43,063 bases of DNA, taken from an uncultured bacterium. Lineage in GTDB: Bacteria > Bipolaricaulota > Bipolaricaulia > UBA7950 > UBA9294. Location: NCBI GenBank assembly GCA_903857865.1, contig CAIOGO010000020.1, forward strand, positions 1 to 43,063. The letters are read 5' to 3'. The notes beneath the pieces were generated by a model, which was not told where the DNA came from, searched no databases, and saw nothing but the letters and a program-made list of their open reading frames with translations. A program made the translations under genes and the position numbers. Below, piece by piece: positions 3,735 through 19,738 of the stretch (its first letter is position 1; each line of letters begins with the position of its first letter).

Positions 3735-3763
3735 TTGACGCAGCGCATCGCGGTGATTACTGT
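3735..3763 (+). promoter_or_regulatory. Predicted promoter of second mazEF pair
   Basis: TTGACG (3735-3740), 17 nt, then TACTGT (3758-3763) precede the antitoxin GTG at 3789. The transcript would have a short leader carrying the GGAGG ribosome-binding site at 3777-3781. Confidence 0.4.
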
Positions 3764-3788
3764 GTACTTACGCCCCGGAGGTGAGGCA

Positions 3789-4037
3789 GTGAAGGCCAAG
3801 CTTGTTCGGATTGGCAACTCGAGAGGCATTCGGCTCCCCAAGCTGCTTATCGACCAAGTGGGACTGGCGGACGAAGTCGACCTCGAAGTCCGGGAAGGGC
3901 AGATCGTGATCTCCGCCTCCGAGCCCGCCCGGAGCGGTTGGGCGGCTGCGGCACGCGCCATGGCGGATCGCCATGAGGACGCGCCCCTCGACCCCTATGT
4001 GCCGAGCCACTTCGACGATCGAGAGTGGAAGTGGTGA
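3789..4037 (+). CDS. mazE: MazE-like AbrB-fold antitoxin 2
   Basis: The 82-residue product opens KAKLVRIGNSRGIRLPKLLI, followed by GLADEVDLEVREGQIVI. This is the swapped-hairpin AbrB/MazE DNA-binding domain (the (L/V)xxxGNSxGIRLPK consensus). The C-terminal tail is acidic and hydrophobic and ends HFDDREWKW, like the segment MazE threads along MazF. The GTG at 3789 has GGAGGTG just upstream and gives the family-typical N-terminus; the in-frame ATG at 3735 would add an unrelated extension. The stop overlaps the mazF ATG (TGATG). Confidence 0.88.
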   Translation: MKAKLVRIGNSRGIRLPKLLIDQVGLADEVDLEVREGQIVISASEPARSGWAAAARAMADRHEDAPLDPYVPSHFDDREWKW

Positions 4038-4366
4038 TGGCGCTCGACGTACTCCGTGGCCACGTCTACCTCGTGTCGCTCGACCCAACCATCGGCCAGG
4101 AGATCCAGAAGACGAGGCCCTGCGTGGTCGTGTCGCCCGACGAGCTGAACGCTCACATGAGTACGTGCATTATCGCGCCGATGACCACGGCGAGCCACGC
4201 GTACCCGTTCCGTGTTCCTTGCCGGTTCCAGGGCAGGGCTGGGTATGTCGTCCTCGACCAGATCCGCAGGGTGGACCGTATACGGCTCGTGAAGAGGCTC
4301 GGGCGGCTCTCTAGTCCAGCGCTCGAGAACTCACTTCGGGCGTTGGAGGAGATGTTCGCGCCGTAG
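4037..4366 (+). CDS. mazF: MazF endoribonuclease toxin 2
   Basis: The 109-residue product has all MazF blocks: RGHVYLVSLDPTIGQEIQKTRPCVVVSPDELN, then CIIAPMTTASHAYPFRVPC, then GYVVLDQIRRVDRIRLVKRLGRL. It is close to the well-known MazF of the GxEixKTRPcvVvSpDelN type. The gene is translationally coupled to mazE by a TGATG overlap. It differs clearly from the MazF at 2758-3102 and has a different antitoxin fold, so the two pairs are not a recent duplication. Confidence 0.92.
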   Translation: MALDVLRGHVYLVSLDPTIGQEIQKTRPCVVVSPDELNAHMSTCIIAPMTTASHAYPFRVPCRFQGRAGYVVLDQIRRVDRIRLVKRLGRLSSPALENSLRALEEMFAP

Positions 4367-4647: not shown

Positions 4648-4869
4648 TTCACCGTAGGCTCCACAACGCAGTTCTGACGCCTGTCATGGAACTTCCGCTT
4701 CCACGAACCTTCCTTCTTCTTTTCACTTCCATCCTAGCACCCAACCTGGGCAGTCCTCGTAAGGAGTGCGGCGTTGGTCGGAAGACGTTGCGCTGTTACC
4801 ATGCAGCTGGCCAATGCCCAAGCACGCACTGTGAGGGGCTCGGATCGCGGTGAATCGGGAGGCAGGAAC

Positions 4870-6114
4870 TTGACGAGACGCAAACCAGAGCAGCAAGTGC
4901 GGAGAGCAGGCGAAACGCGCCAATCGCTCTTGCGCGCTGGGGAGCAGGTGTTCAGCGAGCGCGGGTATCACGAGGCGTCCGTCTCGGCAATCTGTCAGTA
5001 CGCCGGGCTTGCCAACGGGACGTTCTATCGGCATTTCGAGAACAAAGAGGAGATCTTCGCTGTGCTGGTCGAGCAGCTCCAGTGGGCGATGCGCGAGCGG
5101 ATTGAGCGGGCTGCCGATGGGGCGGGGAGTTGTCAAGTGGCGCTCACGCGAGCCTGTCGAAGCGTCCTCTCCTATGCAGAAGAGGAGTCTGCCCTGTATC
5201 GAGTCGGGCGGAGCGCCGAGTCGATGAAGATGGGAATCCATAGGCAGTTTCGCGCGAACCTCGCGGACGCCTTGCGTGAGATTCTCAGCGCAGGGATCCG
5301 GGCTGGCGAGTTGCGGCCCGTCGATCCGAACATAGCAGCCTACGCTTTGTTGGGGATCATCGAGTTCACAGTCATGCGGTACGTGCTCTGGGAACCGGGC
5401 TCTCTCGACGAGCGAGTGCTGGAGACGCTCGATTCCCTGATCCTTCGCGGATTCGACTCCGGGAGAGAGCCGACGCACGTCCCGAGAGAGGCAACGGAGG
5501 CTCCCCCGCGCCTCTCCAGCAATGGAGCGGGGGAGCTGCACGGCGGCGAGGCCACACGACAGGCGCTGCTCGCAGCGGCCGAGCGGTTGTTCGGGCAGGC
5601 GGGGTTCTACCAGACGCCGATCTCAGGGATCACGTACGTTGCGAGCGTGGCGCAGGGCACATTCTACCTCTACTTCCCGAGCAAGGTGGCCGTGTTTGTA
5701 GAGCTCGTACGCGAGATCAACCGGCAATTCCGGCTTGATGAGCAGGCTGCGCTCGCTGGACTCGTCGATCGCCGCGAAATCGAGCGAGTGGGCTTTCGGA
5801 CCTTCTTCCGGTTCATCGATGCACACCGGAGCGCCTATCGGATTCTGCGAGAAGCCGAACTGGTCGATCCGGAAACGGGACGCTGGTACTACGAGCGCCT
5901 CGCCAGGGGCTACATGCGAGGCTTGCACGGTGGCATGGACCGAGGGGAGATCCGCGCCCTAGCCCTCGAGCCGTTGGCATACGCTCTGCTGGGAGTCGGC
6001 CATTCGGTGGCCTTGTGGGGGCAATCAGACGGAGCGGAAGCCGTGATCACCGAGAGCATGGTGGCGGCGCTGCTCGACGTTCTCGAACGAGGTGTTGCGG
6101 CCGACCCCTCCTAA
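4870..6114 (+). CDS. Tandem double TetR-family transcriptional regulator
   Basis: The 414-residue product is two TetR units in one chain. The first DNA-binding domain has RQSLLRAGEQVFSERGYHEASV then LANGTFYRHFENKEEIF (about residues 17-65). The second begins ATRQALLAAAERLFGQAGF near residue 226, with VAQGTFYLYFPSK. Each is followed by an all-helical ligand/dimer domain. A single TetR is usually about 200 residues. GGGAGG at 4857-4862 lies 7 nt before the TTG at 4870, which is preferred over the ATG at 4801. It lies just upstream of, and in line with, the catabolic operon, so it is the probable local repressor. Confidence 0.85.
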   Translation: MTRRKPEQQVRRAGETRQSLLRAGEQVFSERGYHEASVSAICQYAGLANGTFYRHFENKEEIFAVLVEQLQWAMRERIERAADGAGSCQVALTRACRSVLSYAEEESALYRVGRSAESMKMGIHRQFRANLADALREILSAGIRAGELRPVDPNIAAYALLGIIEFTVMRYVLWEPGSLDERVLETLDSLILRGFDSGREPTHVPREATEAPPRLSSNGAGELHGGEATRQALLAAAERLFGQAGFYQTPISGITYVASVAQGTFYLYFPSKVAVFVELVREINRQFRLDEQAALAGLVDRREIERVGFRTFFRFIDAHRSAYRILREAELVDPETGRWYYERLARGYMRGLHGGMDRGEIRALALEPLAYALLGVGHSVALWGQSDGAEAVITESMVAALLDVLERGVAADPS

Positions 6115-6407: not shown

Positions 6408-7574
6408 ATGGGGCATGTCGCGGTCGTAGGCATCGGACAGAGCCGCTTTGGAATTCGGTCCGACGCGTCGCTGCGTGAGCTGGCATTCGAGGCGGTCAAG
6501 GCGTGCCTCGAGGACGTCGGCGTCCAGTTGGCCGAAGTGGAGTCGATGGTCGTCAGCGTGGCGTCCGATGAGTTGAGCTTCGCGCTCCAACCTTCGGCAC
6601 AGGTGACCGACTACATCGGATTCCATCCCAAGCCCAGCTTCCGCGTGGAGGCAGCCTGTGCCTCGGGCAGCATGGCCGTCCGAGCCGGGTGGATGAATGT
6701 TGCGTCCGGGCTCGCGGATCTCGTGCTCGTCGTCGGGGCGGAGAAGATGACCGAGGTTCCGACACCCATCGCGACTGAGGTGCTTGGCCGAGCCGGCGAC
6801 TCCCTGTGGGAGTACCCGTTCGGGATGACGTTTCCTGGGTACTACGCGCTGATCGCGCAAGCGCACATGGCGAAGTACGGGACCACGGAGGCGCAACTGG
6901 CCGCAGTCGCGGTCAAGAACCACTACTACGGAGCGCTGAATCCCTACGCACACATGCGCAAGGAGATCACGCTCGAGAAGGCTCTGAGCTCCTTCGTGGT
7001 TGCATCGCCCCTCAAGCTCTATGACTGCTGTCTGATCTCGGATGGAGCCGCTGCGATCTTGCTGGCTTCGGAGAAGGTGGCCAAGCGACTCCGCAAGAAT
7101 CCGATCTGGCTTCGCGGGTTGGGACTCGGGACGGGCAGCCTCTCACTTGCGCACCGCGAGGACTTGACGACCCTCGGGGCGAGCGTCGAGGCGGCACGCC
7201 AGGCCTACGACATGGCGGGCGTCGGTCCGAAGGAGATCGATGTGGCCGTCGTCCATGACTGTTTCACCATCGCGGAGATCGTCGCTTACGAAGATCTCGG
7301 CTTCTGCCCCAAGGGAGAGGGAGGGCCCCTGGTTGAGGATCGGCAGACCTACATCGGCGGCAGGATCCCGGTCAATGTGGACGGAGGGCTAAAGTCGAAG
7401 GGGCATCCGATCGGAACGACGGGAGTCTCGATGGCCGTCGAGATCACGAAGCAGCTGCGCGGCGAAGCCGAGACGGGACGTCAGGTTCCGAACGCCGAGA
7501 TCGGGCTTTCGCACAACGTCGGAGGGAACGGACAGCACGCAGCCGTCCACGTTTTCGGCCGGGACAAGGAGTAG
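6408..7574 (+). CDS. Thiolase-family protein (SCP2/archaeal ACAT type)
   Basis: The 388-residue product is a full-length thiolase of the SCP2/archaeal acetyl-CoA acetyltransferase group. The nucleophile is C84 in EAACASGS. His residues lie in VVHDCFTIAE (H283) and KGHPIGTTG (H333). The C-terminal CxG loop of biosynthetic thiolases is replaced by HNVGGNG, as in the SCP2-like branch. It should cleave or form a 3-ketoacyl-CoA. It is the first gene of the operon and ends 3 nt before a DUF35 partner, a pairing known for archaeal ACAT-DUF35-HMG-CoA synthase complexes and for PhlC-PhlB. The substrate is unknown. Confidence 0.88.
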   Translation: MGHVAVVGIGQSRFGIRSDASLRELAFEAVKACLEDVGVQLAEVESMVVSVASDELSFALQPSAQVTDYIGFHPKPSFRVEAACASGSMAVRAGWMNVASGLADLVLVVGAEKMTEVPTPIATEVLGRAGDSLWEYPFGMTFPGYYALIAQAHMAKYGTTEAQLAAVAVKNHYYGALNPYAHMRKEITLEKALSSFVVASPLKLYDCCLISDGAAAILLASEKVAKRLRKNPIWLRGLGLGTGSLSLAHREDLTTLGASVEAARQAYDMAGVGPKEIDVAVVHDCFTIAEIVAYEDLGFCPKGEGGPLVEDRQTYIGGRIPVNVDGGLKSKGHPIGTTGVSMAVEITKQLRGEAETGRQVPNAEIGLSHNVGGNGQHAAVHVFGRDKE

Positions 7575-7577
7575 GAC

Positions 7578-8024
7578 ATGGAATTCCGAGACTTTAGCCT
7601 GCTGATCCGAGACACGAAAGTCCACGGCTTCGTCGACGGACTGGAGCGGGGCGAGCTGCTCGCATCGAAGTGTTCGTCCTGCGGCGCAATCCAGTATCCG
7701 CCCCGGAGCGACTGCTCTCACTGTTTCGGCACGGAGTTCGAGTGGGTGGCGGTGCGCGGGGTCGGAACGCTCGTCTCGTTCACGTCGGTCTTCGTCACGC
7801 CGGAGCACTTCACTCCCGACTTCTCCGGGAGCGCGCCTTTCTCGACGTACGGATACCAGCCGGCACCGGTCGGGATCGTTGAGATGGAAGGCGGGCTCCG
7901 CGTGATGGGCTGGATCCCCGGTGTGAAGGCCGAATCGCTACGAGTGGGGATGCGCCTCGCGCCACGACCGGAGGTCCTTCCTGACGGTCGGGTGACGGTG
8001 GTCCTGGCGAAGGCGGAGGGCTGA
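7578..8024 (+). CDS. Zn-ribbon/OB-fold DUF35 protein
   Basis: The 148-residue product has an N-terminal helix segment, then a rubredoxin-like Zn ribbon with C32, C35, C46 and C49 (CSSCG...CSHCF). An OB-fold domain follows with GVGTLVSFTSVFV and GIVEMEGGLRVMGWI. DUF35 proteins hold thiolase and HMG-CoA synthase/KASIII-like partners together, and their OB domain binds the CoA moiety. The gene sits exactly between those two partners here. AAGGAG at 7567-7572, overlapping the thiolase stop, serves as its ribosome-binding site. Confidence 0.9.
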   Translation: MEFRDFSLLIRDTKVHGFVDGLERGELLASKCSSCGAIQYPPRSDCSHCFGTEFEWVAVRGVGTLVSFTSVFVTPEHFTPDFSGSAPFSTYGYQPAPVGIVEMEGGLRVMGWIPGVKAESLRVGMRLAPRPEVLPDGRVTVVLAKAEG

Positions 8025-8030
8025 GCTGCG

Positions 8031-9050
8031 ATGGAGAAGAAGATCAGGGAAGCACGGATCGCGGGGGTTGGAATGTACCTCCCCGAGGAATGCATAACCA
8101 ACGCGCAGCTTGGAGAAATGATGGACTACGACGTGGAGTCCTATCTCGCAGAGAAAGGCATCGGAGTCCGGTACCGCGCCGCAGCAGACGAGTCGACGTC
8201 CGACATGGCGACCCTGGCTGCGCGCAATGCGCTGCGACAGGCAGAGCTGTCGCCAGACGACGTCGACCTGATCATCCTGGCGACGGATACGCCTGACTTC
8301 GTCAGCCCCCCGACCTCGGCGATCATCCAACACAAGTTGGGCGCGAAGAACGCCGGTGCGTTTGACATCAACGCTGCGTGTACCGACGAGACGATCGCCC
8401 TCGCGATTGGCGCGCACTACATCGCGCTCGACCCAGCCATCAACCATGTCATCGTTGTGGGGGCGTACGGCATGACGAAGTGGCTGGATTGGGGGCCGTA
8501 CAGCCAGTCTGCCTCCAAGGTGCTAGCGATGCTGTTCGGCGATGGAGCGGGAGCCGTCGTCCTCTCCCCATCCGACCAGCCGGGGTACCTCTCCAGCAAG
8601 ATGATGAGCGACGGGAGTTGCTGGGACACCTACGGCATCTACCTCGGGACGGGGCGCCCCCTCACGCCCGAGATGGTGGCGAAGAAGCAGCACTACCTCC
8701 GTTTCCATGAGAACGCGCACCGCGTCCCGGGCGACTTCAACGTCACGCGTTGGCCGGCGCTCCTGCGGCAGACGACGGGGGCCGTGGGGCTTTCGCCCTC
8801 CGACCTCGACTTGGTGCTCATGAACCAGGTGGAGCAGGGGGCCGTGCGCGCAACGCTCGAAGCGCTGGGGCTCTCGATGGAGAAGACGCACTGGGTGGCC
8901 GACCGGTTTGGCTACGCCGGGTCGGCCTCCGTGTTCATGGCGCTGTTCGACGCCGTCGAGAAGGGGCGGCTCGCTCCGGGGGATCTTGTGGCGTTCTGTA
9001 CGTCAGGCGCGGGTTTCGTCCTATCGACGGCGCTCTTCCGATGGGTGTAG
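8031..9050 (+). CDS. KASIII (FabH)-like synthase with altered active site
   Basis: The 339-residue thiolase-fold protein resembles 3-oxoacyl-ACP synthase III. It has ARIAGVGMYLPEE at the N-terminus, the nucleophile C117 in DINAACTD, and the FabH C-terminal block ending GDLVAFCTSGAGFVLSTAL. The usual His of PHQAN is N265 (LMNQVEQ) and the usual Asn of DRYGNTS is Y295 (DRFGYAGS), so only Cys of the Cys-His-Asn triad remains. It may form an acyl-enzyme but use a different condensation or transfer chemistry, perhaps in complex with the thiolase and DUF35 protein. GGAGGG at 8014-8020 supports the ATG at 8031. Confidence 0.85.
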   Translation: MEKKIREARIAGVGMYLPEECITNAQLGEMMDYDVESYLAEKGIGVRYRAAADESTSDMATLAARNALRQAELSPDDVDLIILATDTPDFVSPPTSAIIQHKLGAKNAGAFDINAACTDETIALAIGAHYIALDPAINHVIVVGAYGMTKWLDWGPYSQSASKVLAMLFGDGAGAVVLSPSDQPGYLSSKMMSDGSCWDTYGIYLGTGRPLTPEMVAKKQHYLRFHENAHRVPGDFNVTRWPALLRQTTGAVGLSPSDLDLVLMNQVEQGAVRATLEALGLSMEKTHWVADRFGYAGSASVFMALFDAVEKGRLAPGDLVAFCTSGAGFVLSTALFRWV

Positions 9051-9066: not shown

Positions 9067-9804
9067 ATGCGTCTAGCGGGAAAAGTGGCGATCATCACCG
9101 GAGCCGGTCGTGGGATCGGCCGCGAGGCAGCCCTCTTGTTCGCTCGGGAGGGGGCGAAGGTGATCCTCGCCGACGTCGACCCCCAAGCGGAGAAGGTTGT
9201 TCTGGAGATCCAAGGATTCGGTGGCGAAGCGACCTTCGTTCGCAGCGACGTTACGAATCGTGAGAGCTGCGTTGCGTTGGCCGACGCTGCAGCAGAGACG
9301 TTCGGGCGGATCGACGTCCTGGTCAACAACGCCGGCATCACACGCGATGCGCAGCTCATCAAGCTCTCGGAGAGCGACTTCGATCGAGTGATCGGGGTCA
9401 ACCTGAAGGGAACGTTCAACGTCACGCAGGCCGTGGCCCCGCGGATGATCGAGCAGGGCAGCGGACGAATCATCAATGTCTCCTCCGTTGTCGGGTTGTA
9501 CGGCAACTTCGGGCAGACCAACTACGCTGCGACCAAAGCCGGCGTGATCGGGATGACCAAAGTGTGGGCCCGCGAGCTCGGGCGGAAAGGGATCACCGTG
9601 AACGCCGTCGCCCCAGGGTTCATCCAGACCGAGATGACTGAGAGCGTGCCCGAGAAGGTCCTCGAATTGATGCGCGGGAGGACACCGATGGGACGGCTTG
9701 GAACTGCGCGCGATGTGGCCAACATCTACCTGTTCCTGGCTTCGGACGATGCGGCGTACGTCAACGGCGCTGTAGTCTGTGTCGATGGAGGACTCATCCC
9801 GTAG
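9067..9804 (+). CDS. SDR oxidoreductase, FabG-like
   Basis: The 245-residue classical short-chain dehydrogenase has TGAGRGIG (11-18) for dinucleotide binding, NNAG (87-90), S140, Y153 and K157 (YAATK) as the catalytic set, and ends with VNGAVVCVDGGLIP. It is close to 3-oxoacyl-ACP reductase (FabG) types. In this operon it more likely acts on hydroxyacyl- or ketoacyl-CoA intermediates. D36 after the second strand (ILADVD) suggests NAD(H) preference. The ATG at 9067 follows GAAAGGAG (9050-9057) and begins at the first strand of the fold. Confidence 0.9.
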   Translation: MRLAGKVAIITGAGRGIGREAALLFAREGAKVILADVDPQAEKVVLEIQGFGGEATFVRSDVTNRESCVALADAAAETFGRIDVLVNNAGITRDAQLIKLSESDFDRVIGVNLKGTFNVTQAVAPRMIEQGSGRIINVSSVVGLYGNFGQTNYAATKAGVIGMTKVWARELGRKGITVNAVAPGFIQTEMTESVPEKVLELMRGRTPMGRLGTARDVANIYLFLASDDAAYVNGAVVCVDGGLIP

Positions 9805-9851
9805 TGGTGTGGAGGGCGGGTACTTGGCAGGGAGTGAAGGGAGTCGACCAA

Positions 9852-11102
9852 GTGCAACTACCGCGAGGTCGCTGGGTGTGGGGCGCCTGGGTCCTGGTCT
9901 GCGCGAGCCTGCTCACGTCCTGTACAGGAACCGTCCCGACCGAAGCGGTGTCTAAGAGAGAGGAGGGCAGACTGATTCAGGTGTCGAGCGGAGAAACGAT
10001 CCACGTCCGTCGCGCCGGGCATGGCCCGGCGCCGGTGATCTTGCTTCCCGGCAACAACTGCTCCGGCGCGGCGTTCGATGCGCTTCTCACGCTGGTGGGC
10101 GAGAGCAAGGACGTGCGAGAGAAGTACAGCTTCTTCGCCATGGACTACCGCGGCAGCGGCAAGTCTTCCTACCACCAACCCGTCGGGTCCCTCGAAGATT
10201 TCGCCCGCGACTTCGCCGACGTCGTGTCGAGCGATCCTCTCTTGCGGAAGGGCGGGATCACCCTCGTCGGTCACTCCATGGGATTCGGCGTTGCGCAGTG
10301 CATGGTCGCGTTGGATCCGTCGCGCTACGCGGGAGTGATCTCTCTTGCAGGAATCGGAACTCGTGGCGTTCGGGTGATCTTCGCGGGGAACACCGTAGGC
10401 ACGGATCCTGAGACCGGGAAGCTCTACGTCCTCGGCGATTGGGCGGACTCAATCAGTGCGATCGCATTCCAGCAGCGTTCGTGGAGTGGTGCGAACCGTA
10501 CGTCGGAGACGGTGTCCGCCACCTGGAACATGGTCGTCTTCAACGACATCCTGAAGTTCGACCCGGCGAGCTTCAAGGTCACCGATCCGACGTACTTGGC
10601 CAATCCGGGGTACCAGATTGCGATTGCCGATGTGCTGACGACGGTCTACATGCCCGAGTCGCTCTACGCGAGCCACTTCTTCAACTCGACGGCGGCCGCG
10701 GTGCAGCACACGAATCGTGACGGCACGACGGTGACCATCCCGGGTGCCGACAGGCTCGATGCCTTTGAGGGCCTCAAGGTGCTCTTGGTGAAAGCGGAGA
10801 CGGACCGCGCGGGTTGGCGCGGCGATCTGGTAGTCGACGATTCGATTACCCAGAACACGAAGTACGACCTGCGCCGTGCGGGAGCGCGCGTCACCGTGGT
10901 CATGCTCAGGCCCGGCGCTGGATACGACCACGGGTTCCCGATTCACCACCCGAAGGAGACTCTGCAGATGATCGCGGCGTTTGCCGAGACCCGGGCGGAG
11001 CTCCGTGCTGCCCAAGTCGAGTCGGTCTTCGGAGAGGGAAACGCCACGGTCTATGCGGACAAGGAGACGGACTGGGAGCGCGAGACGTACGGCGGGTTCT
11101 AG
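9852..11102 (+). CDS. Alpha/beta hydrolase, predicted lipoprotein
   Basis: The 416-residue product has a signal sequence WGAWVLVCASLLTSC, with the lipobox Cys at residue 24, so it is probably anchored outside the cytoplasmic membrane. The hydrolase fold shows ILLPGNNCSG (oxyanion region), a GHSMG nucleophile elbow (S142) and a late His in GYDHGFPIHH. It is longer than most alpha/beta hydrolases, with a cap insertion around residues 185-290. GTG at 9852 follows AGGGAG (9837-9842); an earlier GTG at 9804 overlaps the previous stop. Secretion suggests it releases a transportable acid from an ester before uptake. Confidence 0.8.
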   Translation: MQLPRGRWVWGAWVLVCASLLTSCTGTVPTEAVSKREEGRLIQVSSGETIHVRRAGHGPAPVILLPGNNCSGAAFDALLTLVGESKDVREKYSFFAMDYRGSGKSSYHQPVGSLEDFARDFADVVSSDPLLRKGGITLVGHSMGFGVAQCMVALDPSRYAGVISLAGIGTRGVRVIFAGNTVGTDPETGKLYVLGDWADSISAIAFQQRSWSGANRTSETVSATWNMVVFNDILKFDPASFKVTDPTYLANPGYQIAIADVLTTVYMPESLYASHFFNSTAAAVQHTNRDGTTVTIPGADRLDAFEGLKVLLVKAETDRAGWRGDLVVDDSITQNTKYDLRRAGARVTVVMLRPGAGYDHGFPIHHPKETLQMIAAFAETRAELRAAQVESVFGEGNATVYADKETDWERETYGGF

Positions 11103-11124: not shown

Positions 11125-11877
11125 ATGACGGATTCTCTGGATCAGCAGGTCGTGATCATCACGGGTGCCAGTTCGGGGATCGGCGCCGCGCTCGCGCGCG
11201 CCTGCTCGCAACGGGGAGCCCTTGTTGCCCTTGCTGCGAGGTCTAGAGAGCGCTTGTCGAGGGTCGCCAGTAGCTGCCCGGGAGAGACCCTGGTCGTGCC
11301 TTGCGACGTCACGGTCGCGGACGAGCGGCGCAAGCTGGTGGGCGTCGTCATAGAGCGATGGGGCAGGGTCGATATCCTCGTCAACAACGCCGGCATCGGG
11401 TACTACGCGTCGTTTGAAGAGGTGGACGAAGCCAGCCTCCGAGCGCTCCTCGAGGTGGATTTCCTTGCGGTCTTCGGGATGACCCAGGAGGCGCTTCGCG
11501 TCATGAAACCGGCCCGCCGAGGTCTGATCCTTCAAGTTGCCTCTACGGGAGGCCTCATCGCCCACGCTCCGAGCGTGGCCGCATACCTGGCAGTGAAGCA
11601 CGCGGTCGTGGGGATGAGTCGCGGCCTGCGAAGGGACCTGGAAGGAACGGGCGTCCGTGTCCAGGTCGTCTGCCCGCATCTGACCGACACGGGGTTCTTC
11701 GAGGCCGGAATAGGTGCCGAGGCAATGAAGGAGGTTGCCGACCGCGTGCGTGGGCACATGGACACGGCCGATCAGGTGGCTGAAGGGATTCTCCGACAGA
11801 TGGGCTCCGAGCGATTCATCGTCTTCCCGACCGATCGGGCGAGATCGGCCTACGAGCACTTCCTGGAGGTGGCATGA
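11125..11877 (+). CDS. SDR oxidoreductase 2
   Basis: The 250-residue short-chain dehydrogenase has TGASSGIG (13-20), NNAG (87-90), S140, Y154 and K158 (YLAVK). After the active site it reads VCPHLTDTGFF, then a C-terminal FPTDRARSAYEHF. This resembles the broad group of SDRs acting on hydroxy-steroids, long-chain or alicyclic alcohols more than FabG. The ATG at 11125 follows GGAG directly (11120-11123) and is the only sensible start for the fold. It overlaps the next gene by 4 nt (ATGA), so the two are co-translated. Confidence 0.87.
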   Translation: MTDSLDQQVVIITGASSGIGAALARACSQRGALVALAARSRERLSRVASSCPGETLVVPCDVTVADERRKLVGVVIERWGRVDILVNNAGIGYYASFEEVDEASLRALLEVDFLAVFGMTQEALRVMKPARRGLILQVASTGGLIAHAPSVAAYLAVKHAVVGMSRGLRRDLEGTGVRVQVVCPHLTDTGFFEAGIGAEAMKEVADRVRGHMDTADQVAEGILRQMGSERFIVFPTDRARSAYEHFLEVA

Positions 11878-12641
11878 CACCGGCAACAGGGACCTCGGAG
11901 GCGTTCGTCTGCCGAACCGCACTTGTGACGGGCGGGGGATCGGGAATCGGACAGGCGGTAGTCGAGGCGCTGTGCGAACGGGGCGCACGGGTCTTCGTCG
12001 CCGACATTGACCTCGCTCGGGCGACGGGCGTCGCGGCCAGGATCGAACGCGACGGCCGGAGGGCGGAGGCGGTTCACTTGGACGTCTCGAACAGCTCTCA
12101 GGTTGTAGAGCTGTTCGCGACCCTGAGGAAACGGTGCGCGGGGCTCGATCTCCTCGTCAACGGCGCGGCCGTGCTCGGGGAGTCTGCTTTCATTGAGGAC
12201 ATGACCGACGAGCAGTGGACGCGTGTGATGTCGGTGAATCTCAACGGAACGTTCTTCTGCTGTCGCGAGGCGGTTCGGTGGATGAAGGAGACGGGCGGCG
12301 GTCGGATCCTCAACTTCAGCTCGGTCGCTGCCTTGATGCCCACGCCGGGAGCGCTTCACTACAGCGCGAGCAAGGGAGGCGTCATCCAACTGACGAAGAC
12401 GCTGGCCCGAGAGACGGCTCGCTACAACATCCGCGTCAACGCGGTGGCACCGGGGTACATCCAGACACCGATGCTCGACGCGATGGACGCGACGTTCCGC
12501 GAGCAGACGCTTCATCGGACGCCGCTGAAGCGGTTTGGCACCCCAGAGGAGATTGCCGGGCTGGTGGCCTTCCTCGCCAGTTCGGAGGCTGACTTTTTCA
12601 CCGGGCAGGTGCTGAGTCCGAACGGCGGGCTGGCGATCTAG
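11874..12641 (+). CDS. SDR oxidoreductase 3
   Basis: The 255-residue classical SDR has TGGGSGIG (19-26), S150, Y163 and K167 (YSASK), the PG-(Y)-I-x-T block in VAPGYIQTPM, and an ending like FTGQVLSPNGGLAI. The usual NNAG is NGAA (96-99), so the structural Asn is shifted to NG, a mild variation. AD at 43-44 (VADID) suggests NAD preference. It starts at the ATGA overlap with the preceding SDR. It is the third SDR in the operon, implying at least two alcohol/ketone steps in the pathway. Confidence 0.88.
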   Translation: MTPATGTSEAFVCRTALVTGGGSGIGQAVVEALCERGARVFVADIDLARATGVAARIERDGRRAEAVHLDVSNSSQVVELFATLRKRCAGLDLLVNGAAVLGESAFIEDMTDEQWTRVMSVNLNGTFFCCREAVRWMKETGGGRILNFSSVAALMPTPGALHYSASKGGVIQLTKTLARETARYNIRVNAVAPGYIQTPMLDAMDATFREQTLHRTPLKRFGTPEEIAGLVAFLASSEADFFTGQVLSPNGGLAI

Positions 12642-12664
12642 TGAAGCCCGAAGGAGGCGCTTGC

Positions 12665-13489
12665 GTGAATCGGCGATGGAAGCACCTGGCGGTCCGCGAG
12701 GCGAACGGCGTCTCCTGGGTCACGATTGATCGGGCCGATGACCGGAACTCGCTCGATTCCGAGACGATCGGGGAACTCCAAAACCACCTCGAGGCTACGG
12801 AGAGGGCGGACGCGCGGGCGATTGTCTATCGCGGGGCTGGCGCGACGCATTTCATCGGCGGTGCAGATGGTGTCGAGATGTGCGAGTTCGGGTCCAGCGA
12901 GGCGCGGAGCTTCTCGCATCGTATCCAGGACCTCTTCCTGCGGATGGAGTCGAGCCCCCTCTTCCTGATCGCCGCAATCCACGGGCTCTGCTTCGGTGGC
13001 GGGCTTGAGTTCGCCCTTGCGTGCGATCTGCGCCTTGCGGCGGAGGACGCCCGGCTCGGCCTCCCCGAGGTCCGGTTGGGGGTCATCCCGGGGGGCGGCG
13101 GAACGCAACGTCTGCCGAGGATCGTTGGCTTCGGGCACGCGGCGGGGATGATCCTTGGGGGCCGCCTGATCGCGGCCGACGAGGCTCTACGGATCGGTCT
13201 CGTGAGCGCGGCCGTGCCAGTCACCGACCTCGAGAAGTGCGCTGCCGAATGGGCAAGCCGCGCGCTGGGGATTCCCACGTACGCGTTCGCCGCGGCGAAG
13301 CAAGCGGTCCACGTCTCGCGCGACCTTCCGCTCGCCGAGGGACTGGCGGCCGAGGCGGACCTGTTTGCCGGCTGCTTCAAGGAGCGGTATTTCGCTGACC
13401 GCGTGCGCGAGCAGCTCGCGGAGGGACGGCTCACAACGACACGACCGCACGCCGGGGAAGGGAAGGGGCACGATCATGCCAACGCTTAG
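12665..13489 (+). CDS. Enoyl-CoA hydratase/isomerase (crotonase)
   Basis: The 274-residue crotonase-fold protein has a FIGGADGVEM oxyanion segment, HGLCFGGGLEFALACD with E115, and GLPEVRLGVIPGGGGTQRL with E135. Both glutamates used by hydratases (rat numbering 144 and 164) are present, so true hydratase activity is plausible. GTG at 12665 lies 7 nt after AAGGAGG (12651-12657); an earlier GTG at 12641 lacks such a site. The 3' end overlaps the next gene by 14 nt. It supplies the hydration step expected between acyl-CoA activation and SDR oxidation. Confidence 0.92.
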   Translation: MNRRWKHLAVREANGVSWVTIDRADDRNSLDSETIGELQNHLEATERADARAIVYRGAGATHFIGGADGVEMCEFGSSEARSFSHRIQDLFLRMESSPLFLIAAIHGLCFGGGLEFALACDLRLAAEDARLGLPEVRLGVIPGGGGTQRLPRIVGFGHAAGMILGGRLIAADEALRIGLVSAAVPVTDLEKCAAEWASRALGIPTYAFAAAKQAVHVSRDLPLAEGLAAEADLFAGCFKERYFADRVREQLAEGRLTTTRPHAGEGKGHDHANA

Positions 13490-14288
13490 GACGCGAGATG
13501 GGGTGGAGCTGTACTACGAGGTCCACGGCAACGGAGAGCCTCTGGTGCTTCTGGGTGGGATCATGATGAGCGCGGCGAGTTGGGCGCAGCACGTGCCAGT
13601 CCTTTCTCGCCACGCGCGCCTCATCCTCTTGGACATGCGTGATCAGGGCCGGTCGGGGAGGATGCGCGGCGAGTATCCGTTGGATGTTCACGTGCCGGAC
13701 GTCCTTGCCTTGCTCGATGAGCTCAAGGTCGAGCGCACGCACTTGATGGGGGTCTCGTACGGCGGGCAGGTAGCGCAGCGTGTGGCGCTCACGCATCCGG
13801 AGCGCTTGCGGACCCTCATCCTCGCGAATGTGAACCACTACATCACCAACCTCCTCGCCGAGATCGGACAGGCTTGGGAAGTCGCCGCCAAGCTGAACGA
13901 CGGGGAACGGTTCTTCCAGCTCGCGGTGCCGTTCATCTACTCGCGGGCATTCTATGCCGACCATCTGGAGGCGCTGCATCAGCGCCAGGCGATGTTCAAG
14001 AGCACCTTGACTCAAGAGTGGTTCGAGGGATTCGTGCGTCTCTGCCACAGCGCGATGGGGTTCCGCATGACGGCGGACGATCTGCGCCGCCTGGAGATGC
14101 CGACCTTGTTGCTCGGCGCGGACGAGGACCAGTTGACACCCCTGCGCGTGATGGAGGAGATGTACGAGGCGATTCCGCATTGCGAGTTCGTGAACCTCCC
14201 GGGCACTGGGCATGGTGCGTGCCTCGAGCGGCCCGACGACTTCATGACGGTAGTGATTGGCTTCTTGGCGAAGCACAGGCAGGCGTAG
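13476..14288 (+). CDS. Alpha/beta hydrolase (ring-opening/enol-lactonase-like)
   Basis: The 270-residue cytoplasmic alpha/beta hydrolase begins RDGVELYYEVHGNGEPLVLLGG. It has the nucleophile elbow GVSYGG (S94), an acidic segment GADEDQLTP and H246 in GTGHGACLE, the full Ser-Asp-His set. The family includes 3-oxoadipate enol-lactonases, C-C bond hydrolases and esterases, so the reaction is not fixed. In this operon it could hydrolyse a thioester, lactone or ring-cleavage product. The ATG at 13476 overlaps the hydratase gene. Confidence 0.85.
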   Translation: MPTLRTRDGVELYYEVHGNGEPLVLLGGIMMSAASWAQHVPVLSRHARLILLDMRDQGRSGRMRGEYPLDVHVPDVLALLDELKVERTHLMGVSYGGQVAQRVALTHPERLRTLILANVNHYITNLLAEIGQAWEVAAKLNDGERFFQLAVPFIYSRAFYADHLEALHQRQAMFKSTLTQEWFEGFVRLCHSAMGFRMTADDLRRLEMPTLLLGADEDQLTPLRVMEEMYEAIPHCEFVNLPGTGHGACLERPDDFMTVVIGFLAKHRQA

Positions 14289-14394: not shown

Positions 14395-15612
14395 GTGAGT
14401 CTGAAAGGCAAGGCAATGGGTCTCAGGGTTTGGGCTCTCGCGATTCTGGTTGTCGTGGGAGCAGGATTCCTTGTCGCGGCGGAAGAGGGCCCCATCAAGC
14501 TGGGGGCTGTCCTCCCGTTGGCGGACATCACCGGCGCTCAGGGATCGAAGGCGATGCAGCTCGCGGTCGACGAGATCAACGCTGCCGGTGGGGTCCTTGG
14601 ACGGCAGCTCGAGCTGATCATAGTTGACGACGAGAGCAAGGCGGAGAAGGGTGCAGCGGCCATCGACAAGCTGGCGACGGTCGACAACGTCGACGTGTTC
14701 ATCGGTGGCATGTCGAGCGGCGTCCACCTTGGCGAGCTCCCGGCTCTGAAGAAGTACGAGAGAGTCACGGTGTGGATCGGCGCGGCGTCGTCGCTCGTCG
14801 AGCAGGCGGTCGTCGGCCTCGACTGGTACTTCCACATCCATCCTTGGGACTACCTGCAGGGCGCGAGCTACGTCGAGGGGTGGGCAGCCCTTCAGGCTGA
14901 GTACCCGTTGATCAAGATCCACAAAGCGTTCTGGGCCTATGAAGAGGGTGCGTTCGGCACGAGTTCGTACCAGGGCAGCTTGGTCGCATTCTCGAACTGG
15001 GAGAACGTCGGCGAGTCGTTCAAGAGCGCGCTCTTGGGCGGTGGTGACTACCGCGCGGTGCTACGCCACGCGCAGGAGTTCGACCCCGACTTGTTCATCT
15101 GGGTTGGGTACGCCGCGGACGCGCTTCCGATTATGGAGCAGGCAGCGGAGATTGGCTTCACCCCGCCGCTCTTCGTGGGATCCCCTCCGGGCTGGCCCGC
15201 TGACTTCGGCACGTCCCCGCTCGCCGACGGCGTCATCGCCTACGGAATGTGGGCGCCATCGATCAAGGACGTGAGCCCAGTCAGCCAGCATTTCTGGGAC
15301 GCCTACATCGCCAAGTACAACGAACAACCGGCAACCTACTTTGCTCCGCTCGGCTACACAAACATCTACGTCGTGGCGGAAGCAATCGCGCGCGCTGGGA
15401 CGCTCGACAAGGAGGCGCTCATCACGGCGCTCGAGGCGACGAACTACGCGTCCCCGCTCGGCGAGACGCTAACGTTCACGCCGTCGAATCTGATCCAACA
15501 CCAGGGTTTCCGGAACCAGAAAATCCTCCAGTGGCAGAACGGTGCACAGCAGGTGCTGTGGCCCTTTGAGTACGCAACGGCTCTACCTGCGTACCCGTTC
15601 ACTGGGCCGTAG
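14395..15612 (+). CDS. Liv-type ABC transporter substrate-binding protein A
   Basis: The 405-residue periplasmic binding protein of the Leu/Ile/Val family has signal sequence LRVWALAILVVVGAGFLVAA, then IKLGAVLPLADITGAQG and AVDEINAAGGVLGRQLELI, the typical family opening. GTG at 14395 lies 5 nt after AAGGAGG (14383-14389). It is the first transporter gene of a complete SBP-permease-permease-ATPase-ATPase set embedded in the catabolic operon. Liv-type binding proteins also carry aromatic acids, amides and other organic acids, so the ligand is probably the pathway substrate rather than an amino acid. Confidence 0.9.
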   Translation: MSLKGKAMGLRVWALAILVVVGAGFLVAAEEGPIKLGAVLPLADITGAQGSKAMQLAVDEINAAGGVLGRQLELIIVDDESKAEKGAAAIDKLATVDNVDVFIGGMSSGVHLGELPALKKYERVTVWIGAASSLVEQAVVGLDWYFHIHPWDYLQGASYVEGWAALQAEYPLIKIHKAFWAYEEGAFGTSSYQGSLVAFSNWENVGESFKSALLGGGDYRAVLRHAQEFDPDLFIWVGYAADALPIMEQAAEIGFTPPLFVGSPPGWPADFGTSPLADGVIAYGMWAPSIKDVSPVSQHFWDAYIAKYNEQPATYFAPLGYTNIYVVAEAIARAGTLDKEALITALEATNYASPLGETLTFTPSNLIQHQGFRNQKILQWQNGAQQVLWPFEYATALPAYPFTGP

Positions 15613-15692: not shown

Positions 15693-16628
15693 ATGACACT
15701 GTTTCGCACACTGCGGCGGTGGCAGCTGCTGCTGCTTCTCGCGTCGTTGGGCGTGCCGATTGTCTTGATGCTATGGAAGCCGTACGTGCTGATCGAGGGG
15801 TTGCAGCGCGGCGGGCTCTACGCGGTGATCGCGCTGCCGATGGCGCTGATCCTCGGCGTCGTGGGCATTATCAACCTCGCGCATGGCGAGTTCATGATGT
15901 TGGGGGCGTACTTCGCCTACTGGATGGGCGTGTACGCAGGCCTCGATCCGCTGGTGGCAATGATCCCGGCCGTCGTCGCGTTCGCGTTGTTGGGCGCGAT
16001 CACGTACGTCTTGACGATCCGTCGGGCCCTCAAGGCGCCGGAGCTCAACCAGCTTCTCTTGACGTTCGGAATGGCCATGGTCGGCACGGAGTTCGCGAAC
16101 CTGATGTGGACCTCGCAGCCGCTGAAGCCGCACTTGTCCTATGTGTACTCCTCCGTGGCGCTTGGCAAGCTTCGGTTTGGGACGTATGCGTTCATCTACA
16201 CGGCCGCGGCGATCGTTCTGCTGGTTCTCCTCCAGCTTTTCCTCCGGAAGACGCGACTCGGGAGGGCAGCTCTCGCCGTTGGACAGAACCCGCGCGGGGC
16301 GAGACTCGTCGGGATTGACGTCAACCGGACGTACCTCCTGATCTTCAGCGTCTCCATCGCGCTAGTCGGCGCGCTCGGCGCCATGTTCCTGACAAGGCAC
16401 TCGGTGTTCCCGTCGGCCGGCTCCCCGTTCACGATGAAGTCGTTCTGTCTGATTGCCATGGCCGGCATCGGGAACTTGCCGGGCGTGGTCTGGGGGGGAT
16501 TCGGTCTCGGGATCGCGGAGGCTCTCGTTTCGTCGTTCCGAGGGTACGGAGGGTGGGCCGACGTGGTGTTCTTCGCCGTGCTCGTCGCGGTGATCATGGG
16601 CAAGTCGTACCGGAGGCAGACGGCATGA
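15693..16628 (+). CDS. livH: Liv-type ABC permease (LivH family) A
   Basis: The 311-residue, very hydrophobic product has about eight membrane segments. GLQRGGLYAVIALPMALILGVVGIINLAHGEFMMLGAY is the LivH signature (NLAHG-(E/D)-(F/L)-(M/Y)). NPRGARLVGIDVNRTYL is the cytoplasmic EAA-like loop that contacts the ATPases. GGGGAGAG directly precedes the ATG at 15693. The stop overlaps the next permease start (ATGA). It forms the inner-membrane channel with the LivM-like partner. Confidence 0.92.
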   Translation: MTLFRTLRRWQLLLLLASLGVPIVLMLWKPYVLIEGLQRGGLYAVIALPMALILGVVGIINLAHGEFMMLGAYFAYWMGVYAGLDPLVAMIPAVVAFALLGAITYVLTIRRALKAPELNQLLLTFGMAMVGTEFANLMWTSQPLKPHLSYVYSSVALGKLRFGTYAFIYTAAAIVLLVLLQLFLRKTRLGRAALAVGQNPRGARLVGIDVNRTYLLIFSVSIALVGALGAMFLTRHSVFPSAGSPFTMKSFCLIAMAGIGNLPGVVWGGFGLGIAEALVSSFRGYGGWADVVFFAVLVAVIMGKSYRRQTA

Positions 16629-17563
16629 GGATGACAAGATACCTCCCCTACGTGCTCGGCGCCGCGTTGGCCGCGCTGTTCCCTCTCTTCTCGGGGGCGT
16701 ACCTGGAGCAGGTGGCGGTCGGGATGCTGATCTACTTGACGCTCGCCTTGAGCTGGGACATGCTGCTGCGATCAGGCCAACTAGGTTTTGGCACGGCAGG
16801 CTTCTTCGGACTCGGCAGCTATGCCGCTATCCTTCTCTTTCTCAACGTGGGCGTCCACCCGTTCGTGAGCATCGCTTTCGGCGGCGTCGTGGCCGGGGTG
16901 GTCGCGCTGCTCGTCGGCCTGGCCGTCCTCAGGCTGCGGGGCATGTACTTCGCGATCACGACGCTGGCGCTTGCCGGCATCTTCGCGGTCGTTCTCCGCA
17001 ACTTCCCGGGCTTGACCGGTGGGTCCGAGGGAAGGATGCTCCCGAACTGCATCTACGCGGGAAACACGACCAAGATCTACTGGCTCGTTCTGGCGCTCGC
17101 GGTGTTCACGATCGTCATCTCGGAGGTGTTCGAGCGGACGAGGATTCGTCTCGCGCTGACGTCCATCCGCAATGACGAACGAGTCGCCAAGTCAAGCGGG
17201 GTGAACGTCTTCAAGTACCTCGTCTTCGTGTTCGCCGTGACGTCGGCGATTCAGGGCCTCGCGGGAGGCACTTACGCGCACGTCTTCGGGTTCGTTTCTC
17301 CAGAGGGCAGCTTCAGCGCCAACTTCCTCTTGTTGCCCCTGGCGATGGCGCTGCTGGGCGGCGTTCACAGCACGTGGGGACCGGTGGTCGGAGGCCTCGT
17401 CCTGGGCGCCCTGTCAGAGTACCTCAAGCTGCAGATCCCATACGGACACCTCTTGGTCTACGGAGCCATCATCGTCGTGGTGACGCTCTTCCTGCCACAA
17501 GGCCTGATGGGAACGGTCAGGGCGTGGTGGCGTCGGTCACACGTGACGCGAGGTGCGCAATGA
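16625..17563 (+). CDS. livM: Liv-type ABC permease (LivM family) A
   Basis: The 312-residue integral membrane protein has TLALSWDMLLRSGQLGFGTAGFFGLGSYAAILL, equivalent to the LivM 'LNLxxGxxGxxSlGhaaFfgiGAY' block. IRNDERVAKSSGVNVFKYL is the ATPase-contact loop (R-(E/D)-(D/N)-E-x-(A/V)-A-x-x-x-G). It starts at the ATGA overlap with livH; an ATG six bases later is a possible alternative. Order and overlap fit one transporter complex. Confidence 0.92.
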   Translation: MRMTRYLPYVLGAALAALFPLFSGAYLEQVAVGMLIYLTLALSWDMLLRSGQLGFGTAGFFGLGSYAAILLFLNVGVHPFVSIAFGGVVAGVVALLVGLAVLRLRGMYFAITTLALAGIFAVVLRNFPGLTGGSEGRMLPNCIYAGNTTKIYWLVLALAVFTIVISEVFERTRIRLALTSIRNDERVAKSSGVNVFKYLVFVFAVTSAIQGLAGGTYAHVFGFVSPEGSFSANFLLLPLAMALLGGVHSTWGPVVGGLVLGALSEYLKLQIPYGHLLVYGAIIVVVTLFLPQGLMGTVRAWWRRSHVTRGAQ

Positions 17564-17642
17564 TGCGCGCGCTCCGAGGGAGGTCGGCGCGGCCGGTAGG
17601 CGCCCCGTCGAGAGGGCAGGGCACTACGAGGGAGAGTCGGGG

Positions 17643-18368
17643 GTGCGGGCAATGGCTGTCTTGAGGACGGAGGCCCTGGAGCGGCGCTTCGGGGGCCTAG
17701 TCGCGGTGCACGACTTGACGTTTGAGCTTGCCGAGAACGAGATCCTTGGCATCATCGGACCGAACGGCGCAGGAAAGACGACGGCGATCAACGCCATCAG
17801 CGGGCTCTACATGCCGACTGCTGGACGCATCTTCCTTGGTGAAGAGGACATCACCTACTCGCCGCCGCACGTTCGGTGCCACCTGGGCATCGGGCGAACG
17901 TTCCAACTGGTGCACCCGTTGGTCGACCTTACGGCGAGGGAGAACATCATGGTCGGGGCGCTCTTCGGCCAGCACCGGTCCCTTCGCCAAGCACGAAAGA
18001 CGGCGGAAGAGATCGCAGCTCAGCTTGGCCTTGAACGAATCGACCGCAGTGTCTCGGACCTGACGGTCCTCGAGATCAAGAAACTGGAGATCGGGCGCGC
18101 GCTGGCTTCCGATCCAAAGGTCCTCTTCTTGGACGAAGTCATGGCCGGGCTGAACTCGGACGAGACGAAGGCTGCGTTGGACGCCGTCCGTGGGATCCGC
18201 GATCAGGGCGTTGCGATCTGCGTCGTAGAGCACGTGATGAGCGTCATACGCGACCTGACGGATCGCGTGATCGTGCTCGACGGGGGAACCATCATCGCGG
18301 AGGGACCGTACTCCAAGGTGTCCGCCGATCCGCGCGTGATCGCCGCCTATCTCGGCGAGGAGGAGTGA
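17643..18368 (+). CDS. livG: Liv-type ABC ATPase (LivG family) A
   Basis: The 241-residue ATPase has Walker A GPNGAGKTT, the LivG-typical GIGRTFQLVHPLVDLTARENI Q-loop region, Walker B VLFLDEVMAGLN and switch His in VVEHVM. The signature motif is unusual: LTVLEIKKLEIGRAL occupies the place of LSGGQ-xxRLEIARAL. Some LivG-like proteins have similarly degenerate 'LTLxxRKRLE' signatures, so it may be functional. GTG at 17643 is 6 nt after AGGGAGAG (17629-17636); an ATG at 17652 is an alternative. The stop overlaps livF. Confidence 0.9.
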   Translation: MRAMAVLRTEALERRFGGLVAVHDLTFELAENEILGIIGPNGAGKTTAINAISGLYMPTAGRIFLGEEDITYSPPHVRCHLGIGRTFQLVHPLVDLTARENIMVGALFGQHRSLRQARKTAEEIAAQLGLERIDRSVSDLTVLEIKKLEIGRALASDPKVLFLDEVMAGLNSDETKAALDAVRGIRDQGVAICVVEHVMSVIRDLTDRVIVLDGGTIIAEGPYSKVSADPRVIAAYLGEEE

Positions 18369-19069
18369 TGCTTGCCGTCGCGAAGCTGAACCATTACTAC
18401 GGAAAGGCTCACGTCCTGCGCGACGTCTCGCTCGACGTTGGGACGGAATCCGTCGGCGTGTTCGGACCGAACGGAGCTGGCAAGACGACGCTGGTCCACG
18501 CGATCGTCGGGCTCGTCCGGCCGAGAAGCGGGGACGTCACGTTCGACGGGCGCTCGCTGTTGCGGCTGCCTACGCACGAGGTGATCCGTTCGGGCGTCGC
18601 GCTGGTGCCGCAGGAGCGCGAGCTCTTCCCGTATATGTCCGTCCGGGCGAACCTCGAGTCCGGGGCGGCGTATATCCCCGGCGCCCGCAAGGACTTGCCC
18701 GCCGCGCTTCAGGCCTCGTTCGAGATGTTCCCCATCCTCAAAGTTCGCGCGCGGCAGCTCGCGGGCACGTTGAGTGGCGGCGAACAGAGGATGCTCGCCA
18801 TCGCGCGCGCCATGATGTCCTCCCCGAAGCTCCTCATCTTGGATGAGCCGTCGCTAGGCTTGCAGCCATCTCTCGTGACCGAGCTCTTCCACAAGGTGCG
18901 GAACCTCGGCGAGCGGAGCGCAATCCTCATGGCCGAACAGAACGTGCGCCAGAGCCTGAAGGCCGTCGGCCGGGGCTACGTGATTGAGAATGGACAGATT
19001 GCTCTCGAGGGTCCCTCCGACGAACTCCTTCGGAACGATCACGTCCGGCGGGCGTACCTTGGGTTGTAG
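18368..19069 (+). CDS. livF: Liv-type ABC ATPase (LivF family) A
   Basis: The 233-residue ATPase has Walker A GPNGAGKTT, GVALVPQERELFPYMSVRANLE (LivF Q-loop block), a canonical LSGGEQRMLAIARAL-like signature (LSGGEQRMLAIARAM), Walker B LLILDEPSLGLQP and AEQNVRQSL with Gln-Asn in the switch region, as usual in LivF. It starts at ATG 18368, overlapping the livG stop (TGATG). Because LivG has a degenerate signature and LivF an intact one, the two ATP sites may be asymmetric. Confidence 0.92.
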   Translation: MLAVAKLNHYYGKAHVLRDVSLDVGTESVGVFGPNGAGKTTLVHAIVGLVRPRSGDVTFDGRSLLRLPTHEVIRSGVALVPQERELFPYMSVRANLESGAAYIPGARKDLPAALQASFEMFPILKVRARQLAGTLSGGEQRMLAIARAMMSSPKLLILDEPSLGLQPSLVTELFHKVRNLGERSAILMAEQNVRQSLKAVGRGYVIENGQIALEGPSDELLRNDHVRRAYLGL

Positions 19070-19096: not shown

Positions 19097-19693
19097 ATGA
19101 GCGCTAGAGCTTTGGCACTCTGTGGTAGCCCCCGCGCGGGGAGCAACACGCAGACGTACCTCGAGGCGGCCCTCCAAGTCCTGGGAGAGCACGGCGTCGA
19201 GACCGAACTCATCGCGTTGCGGGGCAAGACGATCCACAGCTGCAAGGCCTGCTATGCCTGCTGGCGCCATGGCGGCGACATCTGTCAGATTGCAGACGAC
19301 GACTTCCGCCCCATCTTCGAGAAGATGCTCTCGGCAGACGCGCTGATCGTCGGATCTCCGGTGCACTACAGCGCGGTCCACCCGGACCTCTGGTCTGTCC
19401 TCGTCCGCGCCGGGTTCCCCGGAATGGCAGGACATCCGCACAGCGCTCCGCGGCCGTTCGCGCGCAAGGTCGGCGGGCCCATCACGGTGGCTCGCCGCGC
19501 CGGCCAGAACTTCGCCCTCGCTCAACTGCTCCTTTGGTTCAACATCAATGGCTTCATCGTGCCCGGCTCGATCTACTGGCCGGTGGGCGTTGCCCGATCC
19601 GTCGGTGACGCCGCGAAGGACACAGAAGGGATCGAGACCGCGGTCGCCTTTGCGGAGAACGTGGCCTGGCTCCTGGAGAAGACACAGACGTAG
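19097..19693 (+). CDS. NADPH-dependent FMN reductase / iron-sulfur flavoprotein-like
   Basis: The 198-residue flavodoxin-like protein has ALCGSPRAGSNTQTYLEAAL, the phosphate-binding loop of the NADPH:FMN reductase group. Next comes HSCKACYACWRHGGDICQIADD, a Cys-rich segment like that of iron-sulfur flavoproteins and multimeric flavodoxin WrbA relatives. ADALIVGSPVHYSAVHPDLWSVL is the expected middle block. It follows the transporter ATPase by 27 nt and precedes the acyl-CoA ligase, so it is probably the electron-transfer or reductase member of the same pathway. GAGGGCGGG upstream serves as the ribosome-binding site. Confidence 0.85.
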   Translation: MSARALALCGSPRAGSNTQTYLEAALQVLGEHGVETELIALRGKTIHSCKACYACWRHGGDICQIADDDFRPIFEKMLSADALIVGSPVHYSAVHPDLWSVLVRAGFPGMAGHPHSAPRPFARKVGGPITVARRAGQNFALAQLLLWFNINGFIVPGSIYWPVGVARSVGDAAKDTEGIETAVAFAENVAWLLEKTQT

Positions 19694-19738
19694 CCACTCG
19701 GCGCGTCCGCGCCCGTGGGCAGAAAGGAGACGAAGGGG

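Follow-up and report, generated by a model that had tools for sequence, protein, structure and literature searches.

Does the DUF35 protein encoded between a thiolase and a KASIII-fold enzyme in an uncultured member of the Bipolaricaulota join its two neighbours into one channelling complex, or do the three genes represent two enzymes that share an operon? The window, by which we mean the whole stretch of 43,063 nucleotides that was analysed, carries on its plus strand the genes of a DUF35-type (ACAT/SCP2-like) thiolase (6408..7574), a DUF35 zinc-ribbon/OB protein (7578..8024) and a KASIII-fold enzyme (8031..9050), with gaps after the stop codons of 3 nt between thiolase and DUF35 and 6 nt between DUF35 and KASIII. 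The adjacency and the order thiolase, DUF35, KASIII, as read in the first-pass annotation, agree with the coordinates and with the Pfam assignments, which are Thiolase_N and Thiolase_C_1 (6408-7571), zf-ChsH2 (Pfam ID PF12172) and OB_ChsH2_C (Pfam ID PF01796) (7578-8021), and ACP_syn_III and ACP_syn_III_C (8031-9047).

The triad follows a gene for a tandem TetR regulator (4774..6114), a single protein with two TetR_N domains (two Pfam stretches), and precedes a series of genes on the same plus strand. In order, these encode SDR1, a FabG-type 3-oxoacyl reductase/3-hydroxyacyl dehydrogenase (9067..9804; NCBIfam PRK05653.1-3, 310.6 bits versus a cut-off of 296); an alpha/beta hydrolase with a lipoprotein-like N-terminus and an uncertain start codon (9804..11102; Pfam Abhydrolase_6); SDR2 (11125..11877; Pfam adh_short); SDR3 (11874..12641; Pfam adh_short_C2); an enoyl-CoA hydratase/isomerase (12641..13489; Pfam ECH_1); a PcaD/MhpC-like alpha/beta hydrolase (13476..14288; Pfam Abhydrolase_1, with TIGR02427 below its cut-off); a LivK-type substrate-binding protein (14395..15612; homologue searches); the ABC permeases and ATPases of livH, livM, livG and livF (15693..19069; read from the translations); an NADPH-dependent FMN reductase (19097..19693; Pfam FMN_red); and an AMP-forming acyl-CoA ligase (19715..21334; NCBIfam PRK06187.1 with 433 bits, below the cut-off of 476; PDB relatives 8weu and 3r44). 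Every component that had been claimed for an operon headed by the triad, namely the SDRs, hydratase, hydrolases, Liv transporter and CoA ligase, was identified downstream.

Several of these genes differ in how far they are shared. The lipoprotein-like hydrolase, a weak match to an scl-PHA depolymerase in NCBIfam that stays below the cut-off, is present only in the window's locus among the loci examined. The liv gene cluster is conserved together with the triad in locus L027, and tandem TetR genes of the long form (about 400-446 aa) are neighbours of KASIII in Caldisericota and in many Bipolaricaulota. A promoter and terminator scan gave no excess over shuffled sequences, and the PDB relatives of LivK and the CoA ligase, consulted as a clue to the substrate, were weak or generic. 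Liv transporters and CoA ligases occur in non-degradative settings too, which counts against a catabolic reading.

The first two proteins of the triad are conventional in their residues. The thiolase retains the nucleophile Cys84 and the motifs HDC285F, GH333P and N370VGG intact in the motif alignment, and is therefore predicted to be a thiolase and not a retro-aldolase of the Sal/Ltp2 type, a candidate excluded by its HDCF motif and Cys84. It passes the cut-off of the PRK06064 subfamily (NCBIfam PRK06064.1, NF004720; 517.1 versus 420 bits), and its PDB scores are 295.8 bits for 7yvy, 257.5 for the archaeal ACAT 6esq and 119.2 for PhlC. The DUF35 protein carries a canonical C4 zinc site, C32-x2-C35-x10-C46-x2-C49 (7671-7724), followed by the OB fold (Pfam and alignment). 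The pair was rejected as BbsAB proper, with the thiolase scoring 205.1 bits versus a BbsB cut-off of 750 and the DUF35 protein 33.8 bits versus a BbsA cut-off of 250.

An orthologue survey of 100 genomes of the phylum found a close KASIII orthologue in seven, namely the window's own genome (G000), G001, G005, G009, G038, G094 and G099, with 75-89% identity besides the window's own. A DUF35 orthologue is present in the same seven genomes (62-84% identity besides the window's own); in locus L025 of G094 it has 61% identity. The thiolase orthologue (79-100% identity, own included) is found in six of the seven, the exception being G099, whose contig starts 88 nt before DUF35; in G086, the thiolase is present and the contig breaks off shortly after DUF35 begins. 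Because all seven KASIII-bearing genomes also hold the DUF35 orthologue, the triad is seen to be inherited as a unit in the window's lineage. It is conserved, and the association, with KASIII and DUF35 matching exactly in 7 of 100 genomes, is beyond chance. The KASIII phylogeny joins the window and its genus mate to family f4 and not to the other members of family f1 (100/98), a placement that fits an exchange between families.

This strict co-inheritance, in which the thiolase takes part, together with the adjacency and short spacing of the genes and a fold set equal to that of two solved three-part complexes (PMC6392133), speaks for a stable ternary channelling complex of the kind known from archaea (ACAT-DUF35-HMGCS) and from PhlACB; here DUF35 would join the thiolase to the KASIII-fold enzyme and acyl-CoA would be passed between the sites. 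However, the AlphaFold2 model of the KASIII-fold protein (pLDDT 94.1) has FabH as its nearest PDB fold (PDB ID 4ryb; Z score 45.8, 316 residues, rmsd 1.8), and neither HMGCS nor PhlA is among the best 50 fold matches, a result still compatible with a distant relation. The gene neighbourhoods of KASIII relatives argue in the same direction. Thiolase and DUF35 come before KASIII in the window's clade, whereas other DUF35 loci are ordered KASIII-ligase-thiolase-DUF35 (L039 and L041) or KASIII-CoA-transferase-thiolase-DUF35 (L064 and L069). The thiolases scanned from these loci (L039 and L064) pass the PRK06064 cut-off, and the DUF35 proteins of L064 and L069 have lost the zinc cysteines in the alignment. 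In L031, L032, L072 and L118, a BktB/AtoB-type thiolase replaces the thiolase together with DUF35, which was not found in these loci, and in L029 and L049, which like L031 and L032 hold near KASIII relatives, the KASIII gene comes directly after the tandem-TetR gene and DUF35 is absent. Within the KASIII-fold protein, neither the state of N265 nor an insertion near residue 155 tracks the presence of DUF35.

Because a BktB/AtoB-type thiolase can substitute for thiolase plus DUF35, the conserved need is the thiolase step and not DUF35 itself. DUF35 accompanies only the thiolase type that uses it, which suggests that thiolase-DUF35 is one enzyme and KASIII another, and since relatives retain the KASIII-fold enzyme in comparable operons where DUF35 is missing or the thiolase is of a type that does without it, the complex cannot be essential to the KASIII-fold enzyme. 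The unit is kept in the window's clade; elsewhere the thiolase-DUF35 pair is absent, reordered or replaced. This makes it unlikely that the three proteins form an obligate channelling complex, and we also regard a stable ternary complex of the ACAT-DUF35-HMGCS or PhlACB kind as doubtful, though one could exist in the seven genomes that combine the three genes.

The hallmark of KASIII-fold enzymes, which are known for starting chains, is a His/Asn dyad at which the malonyl donor is decarboxylated. In the alignment of the window's protein, C117 (8379-8381) is kept, the position of the KASIII His is occupied by N265 (8823-8825; Thr in most relatives) and that of the KASIII Asn by Y295 (8913-8915). 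None of D86 (8286-8288), C117, Q266 and Y295 varies among 56 clade sequences, and the replacement of His by Asn or Thr and of Asn by Tyr runs throughout. When the clade is aligned jointly with FabHs (those of Nitrospirota and the host's own, L002) and one Thorarchaeota HMG-CoA synthase, D86 shares its column with the catalytic Glu of HMGCS, a position at which the FabHs carry Thr or Val, and the His column holds His in HMGCS and the FabHs and Asn or Thr in the clade. True FabHs from the same scan, like the host's own, keep Cys-His-Asn. The tree places 72 clade sequences in one group (85/99), separate from 15 true FabHs (100/97).

The decarboxylation dyad is missing in the clade because of these two replacements, and the normal KASIII reaction is therefore not expected of it. 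Judged by its residues, the KASIII-fold enzyme, with two of the three usual catalytic residues lost, probably carries out a different chemistry. The clade is apparently a widespread, undescribed KASIII-fold group with an Asp-Cys-[Asn/Thr]-Tyr site, and neither it nor the thiolase-DUF35-KASIII triad is described among the titles and abstracts returned by literature searches, which left subscription papers mostly outside.

The loss of His and Asn could also mean that the KASIII-fold protein is structural or thioesterase-like instead of a C-C bond enzyme. The retained Cys and the lost dyad would suit a Cys thioesterase or an acyl-CoA:alcohol/amine acyltransferase that makes no C-C bond and detoxifies or recycles acyl-CoA, and a non-Claisen precedent exists in ChlB3, a KASIII-like acyltransferase without Claisen chemistry (PMC9573744). 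We nevertheless judge this role improbable, since C-C chemistry is the better fit both for an acid that never varies at the HMGCS Glu position and for the thiolase and SDR genes that often accompany the clade. That the gene is an ordinary FabH starter synthase lying in the operon by chance is very improbable, although FabH is nearest in both fold and sequence: the protein scores below the FabH cut-offs (TIGR00747, 190.9 versus 292.1 bits; PRK09352, 218 versus 249 bits), the decarboxylation-site residues are lost clade-wide, the host has another FabH with Cys-His-Asn, and SDR, ligase and importer genes go with the clade but not with the FabH loci. A further reading, which takes the triad for a bacterial version of the archaeal complex of the mevalonate pathway (thiolase-DUF35-HMG-CoA synthase), can draw on the same Pfam families and on D86 at the catalytic Glu position, but is hardly credible given that the KASIII-fold protein lies far below the archaeal HMG-CoA synthase cut-offs (TIGR00748, 43.4 versus 353.35 bits; PRK04262, 63.1 versus 244 bits), that it departs from the HMGCS Glu-Cys-His set with Asp86 and Asn265 on either side of a present Cys, that the host genome has no TIGR00748 match, and that a Thorarchaeota genome (G100) has both a true HMGCS-thiolase (ACAT)-DUF35 operon and, at the separate locus L058, the window's KASIII type.

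For the wider clade, 79 loci were mapped and compared with 15 FabH loci treated alike. Of the 79 clade loci, 45 carry an SDR directly beside KASIII, 58 a CoA ligase in the vicinity and 31 a thiolase, while Liv components occur in 29 of the 56 loci of at least 12 kb. In the 15 FabH loci, such SDR, ligase, hydrolase and thiolase genes were all missing, and one locus gave a Liv match. Among 71 further neighbour proteins, Pfam identified 19 TonB-type outer-membrane receptors, 8 periplasmic binding proteins and 6 CoA-transferases, and no acyl-CoA dehydrogenase is among the 25 commonest neighbour families (45 rarer families fall outside these). The means of import varies between Liv and a TonB-type receptor, and that of activation between a ligase and a CoA-transferase (L064); constant across the clade is a pattern of import, activation, SDR, KASIII, thiolase and hydrolase, which suggests a degradative pathway. 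The catabolic, transporter-linked setting proposed for the window is supported by the gene content and by these clade neighbourhoods.

On this evidence we incline, by a small measure, towards two functional units in one catabolic operon, a DUF35-dependent thiolase and a non-decarboxylating KASIII-fold enzyme of the Cys-acyltransferase or Claisen type; we infer the formation of a thiolase-DUF35 complex, the catabolic direction and the chemistry of the KASIII-fold enzyme. The Liv transporter would import the substrate acid, the CoA ligase would activate it, and SDR1 would make a 3-oxoacyl-CoA. The thiolase and DUF35 would be the two subunits of one enzyme of the BbsAB/ACAT type. In it, DUF35 may cap the thiolase and shape the acyl-CoA site, and the enzyme would perform the final thiolytic cleavage of the 3-oxoacyl-CoA delivered by SDR1. 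The KASIII-fold enzyme, working on the same acyl-CoA pool as thiolase-DUF35, would form an acyl-Cys117 intermediate from an acyl- or oxoacyl-CoA and might then catalyse a non-decarboxylating acyl transfer or a (retro-)Claisen-type step; the likely acid/base groups are Asp86 and Tyr295.

A bolder reading extends to the clade as a whole, whose hosts include Bipolaricaulota, Chloroflexota, Acidobacteriota and Thorarchaeota, among others. The clade might represent a new catalytic KASIII-fold type common to all of these, a non-decarboxylating enzyme of the (retro-)Claisen kind that serves degradation by cleaving a C-C bond of an acid taken up by the cell and activated with CoA, and that, in the window's lineage, is also part of a ternary complex with the DUF35 thiolase; we put this forward tentatively, as possible but not the expected outcome. 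Here a widespread clade has lost the dyad and kept the Cys, with an acid at the position where HMG-CoA synthase has one, and its genes lie in degradative operons linked to uptake, in Asgard archaea as well as in uncultured bacteria. This combination points to a kind of acyl-CoA chemistry not recognised so far and to an unknown carbon source. The exchange of a DUF35 thiolase for an ordinary thiolase beside KASIII is, in addition, a natural experiment on the role of DUF35.

Among the known systems, the first-pass annotation had likened the triad to ACAT-DUF35-HMGCS and PhlC-PhlB-PhlA, and the likeness stands for the set of folds but not for the third partner, which is FabH-like, reaches 43 and 63 bits with the HMG-CoA synthase profiles, keeps the Cys unlike PhlA and lacks the His of HMGCS and KASIII. 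The archaeal ACAT/DUF35/HMG-CoA synthase complex (PDB ID 6ESQ) comprises the same three folds, and its thiolase and DUF35 are sequence relatives of those in the window, whereas the third partner in the window is something other than HMGCS, with a FabH-like fold, Asp at the Glu position and the catalytic His missing, and the context is degradative. The gene order differs as well, being thiolase-DUF35-KASIII in the window and HMGCS-thiolase-DUF35 in the Thorarchaeota locus. Benzoylsuccinyl-CoA thiolase BbsAB (PDB ID 7PXP), a catabolic two-subunit thiolase with DUF35, is the probable model for the region 6408-8024, and we know of no KASIII partner for it.

The Friedel-Crafts acylase PhlACB (PDB ID 5M3K) has KASIII-fold, thiolase and DUF35 subunits encoded together, as in the window. 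PhlA has Gly115 instead of the Cys and Cys83 instead of the acid (PMC6392133), whereas the window's protein has both C117 and D86, and the window's thiolase is closer to ACAT than to PhlC. A homologue of PhlACB is ruled out by C117, which is present and invariant in the clade. The Sal/Ltp2 steroid retro-aldolases likewise pair a thiolase fold with DUF35; in Sal, Gly replaces the nucleophilic Cys and the motif reads YDCY (PMC12329534). KASIII/FabH itself has the fold and the nucleophilic Cys in common with the window's protein, in which the His and Asn of the triad are replaced and the genome context differs. An OleABCD-like set of KASIII, hydrolase, ligase and SDR was considered and set aside, with 3row and its relatives, which we take to be OleA structures, scoring about 47 bits versus 150 for FabH, and with the SDR being of the FabG type. 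Within the Bipolaricaulota, family f7 has an HMGCS-like-DUF35-thiolase triad whose HMGCS-like protein lacks the catalytic Cys (L165 and L166) and in this recalls PhlA. The phylum holds at least two kinds of triad, and that of the window is distinct from both known types.

The genes that flank the operon in the window include three toxin-antitoxin-like gene pairs (one of the BrnT type and two of the MazF/PemK type) immediately upstream, at 1888-4366, followed at 4774-6114 by a regulator in which a single protein carries two complete TetR-type DNA-binding domains. Long forms of this tandem TetR protein (about 400 to 446 residues) lie upstream of the KASIII gene in many Bipolaricaulota and are also found near KASIII in Caldisericota.

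Elsewhere in the window, two overlapping reading frames at 24311-25754 hold a DUF1254 half and a DUF1214 half, which looks like a frameshift within one gene. A separate, second Liv-type transporter set occupies 27352-32149; its binding protein is encoded on the plus strand and its other components on the minus strand. The stand-alone catalytic core of a class II (D/K/N) tRNA synthetase (312 residues) is encoded at 32670-33608, in which the Pfam scan found no anticodon-binding domain.

Additional KASIII paralogues occur at two loci (L061, 3356-6118; L057, 1906-2928), each within a gene cluster that also holds the KASIII type of the window; where scanned, they belong to the unexplained family PRK06840. 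The host genome has a second thiolase-DUF35 pair, which is not accompanied by a KASIII gene (L162, 10034-12348, G000:C22).

The DUF35 proteins at L064 (13882-14328) and L069 (13869-14330) have lost their zinc-binding cysteines, with the thiolase gene still adjacent. At L041 (17801-19899), a thiolase-fold gene adjoining a DUF35 gene has the nucleophilic cysteine replaced by glycine and carries a YDPF motif; this Bipolaricaulota gene may encode a retro-aldolase of the Sal/Ltp2 kind.

In the Bipolaricaulota family f7, an HMGCS-like gene without the catalytic cysteine adjoins DUF35 and thiolase genes (L165, 9214-11809; L166, 1633-4186). The encoded protein is a predicted inactive subunit resembling PhlA of the PhlACB complex, and the arrangement is a third kind of triad.
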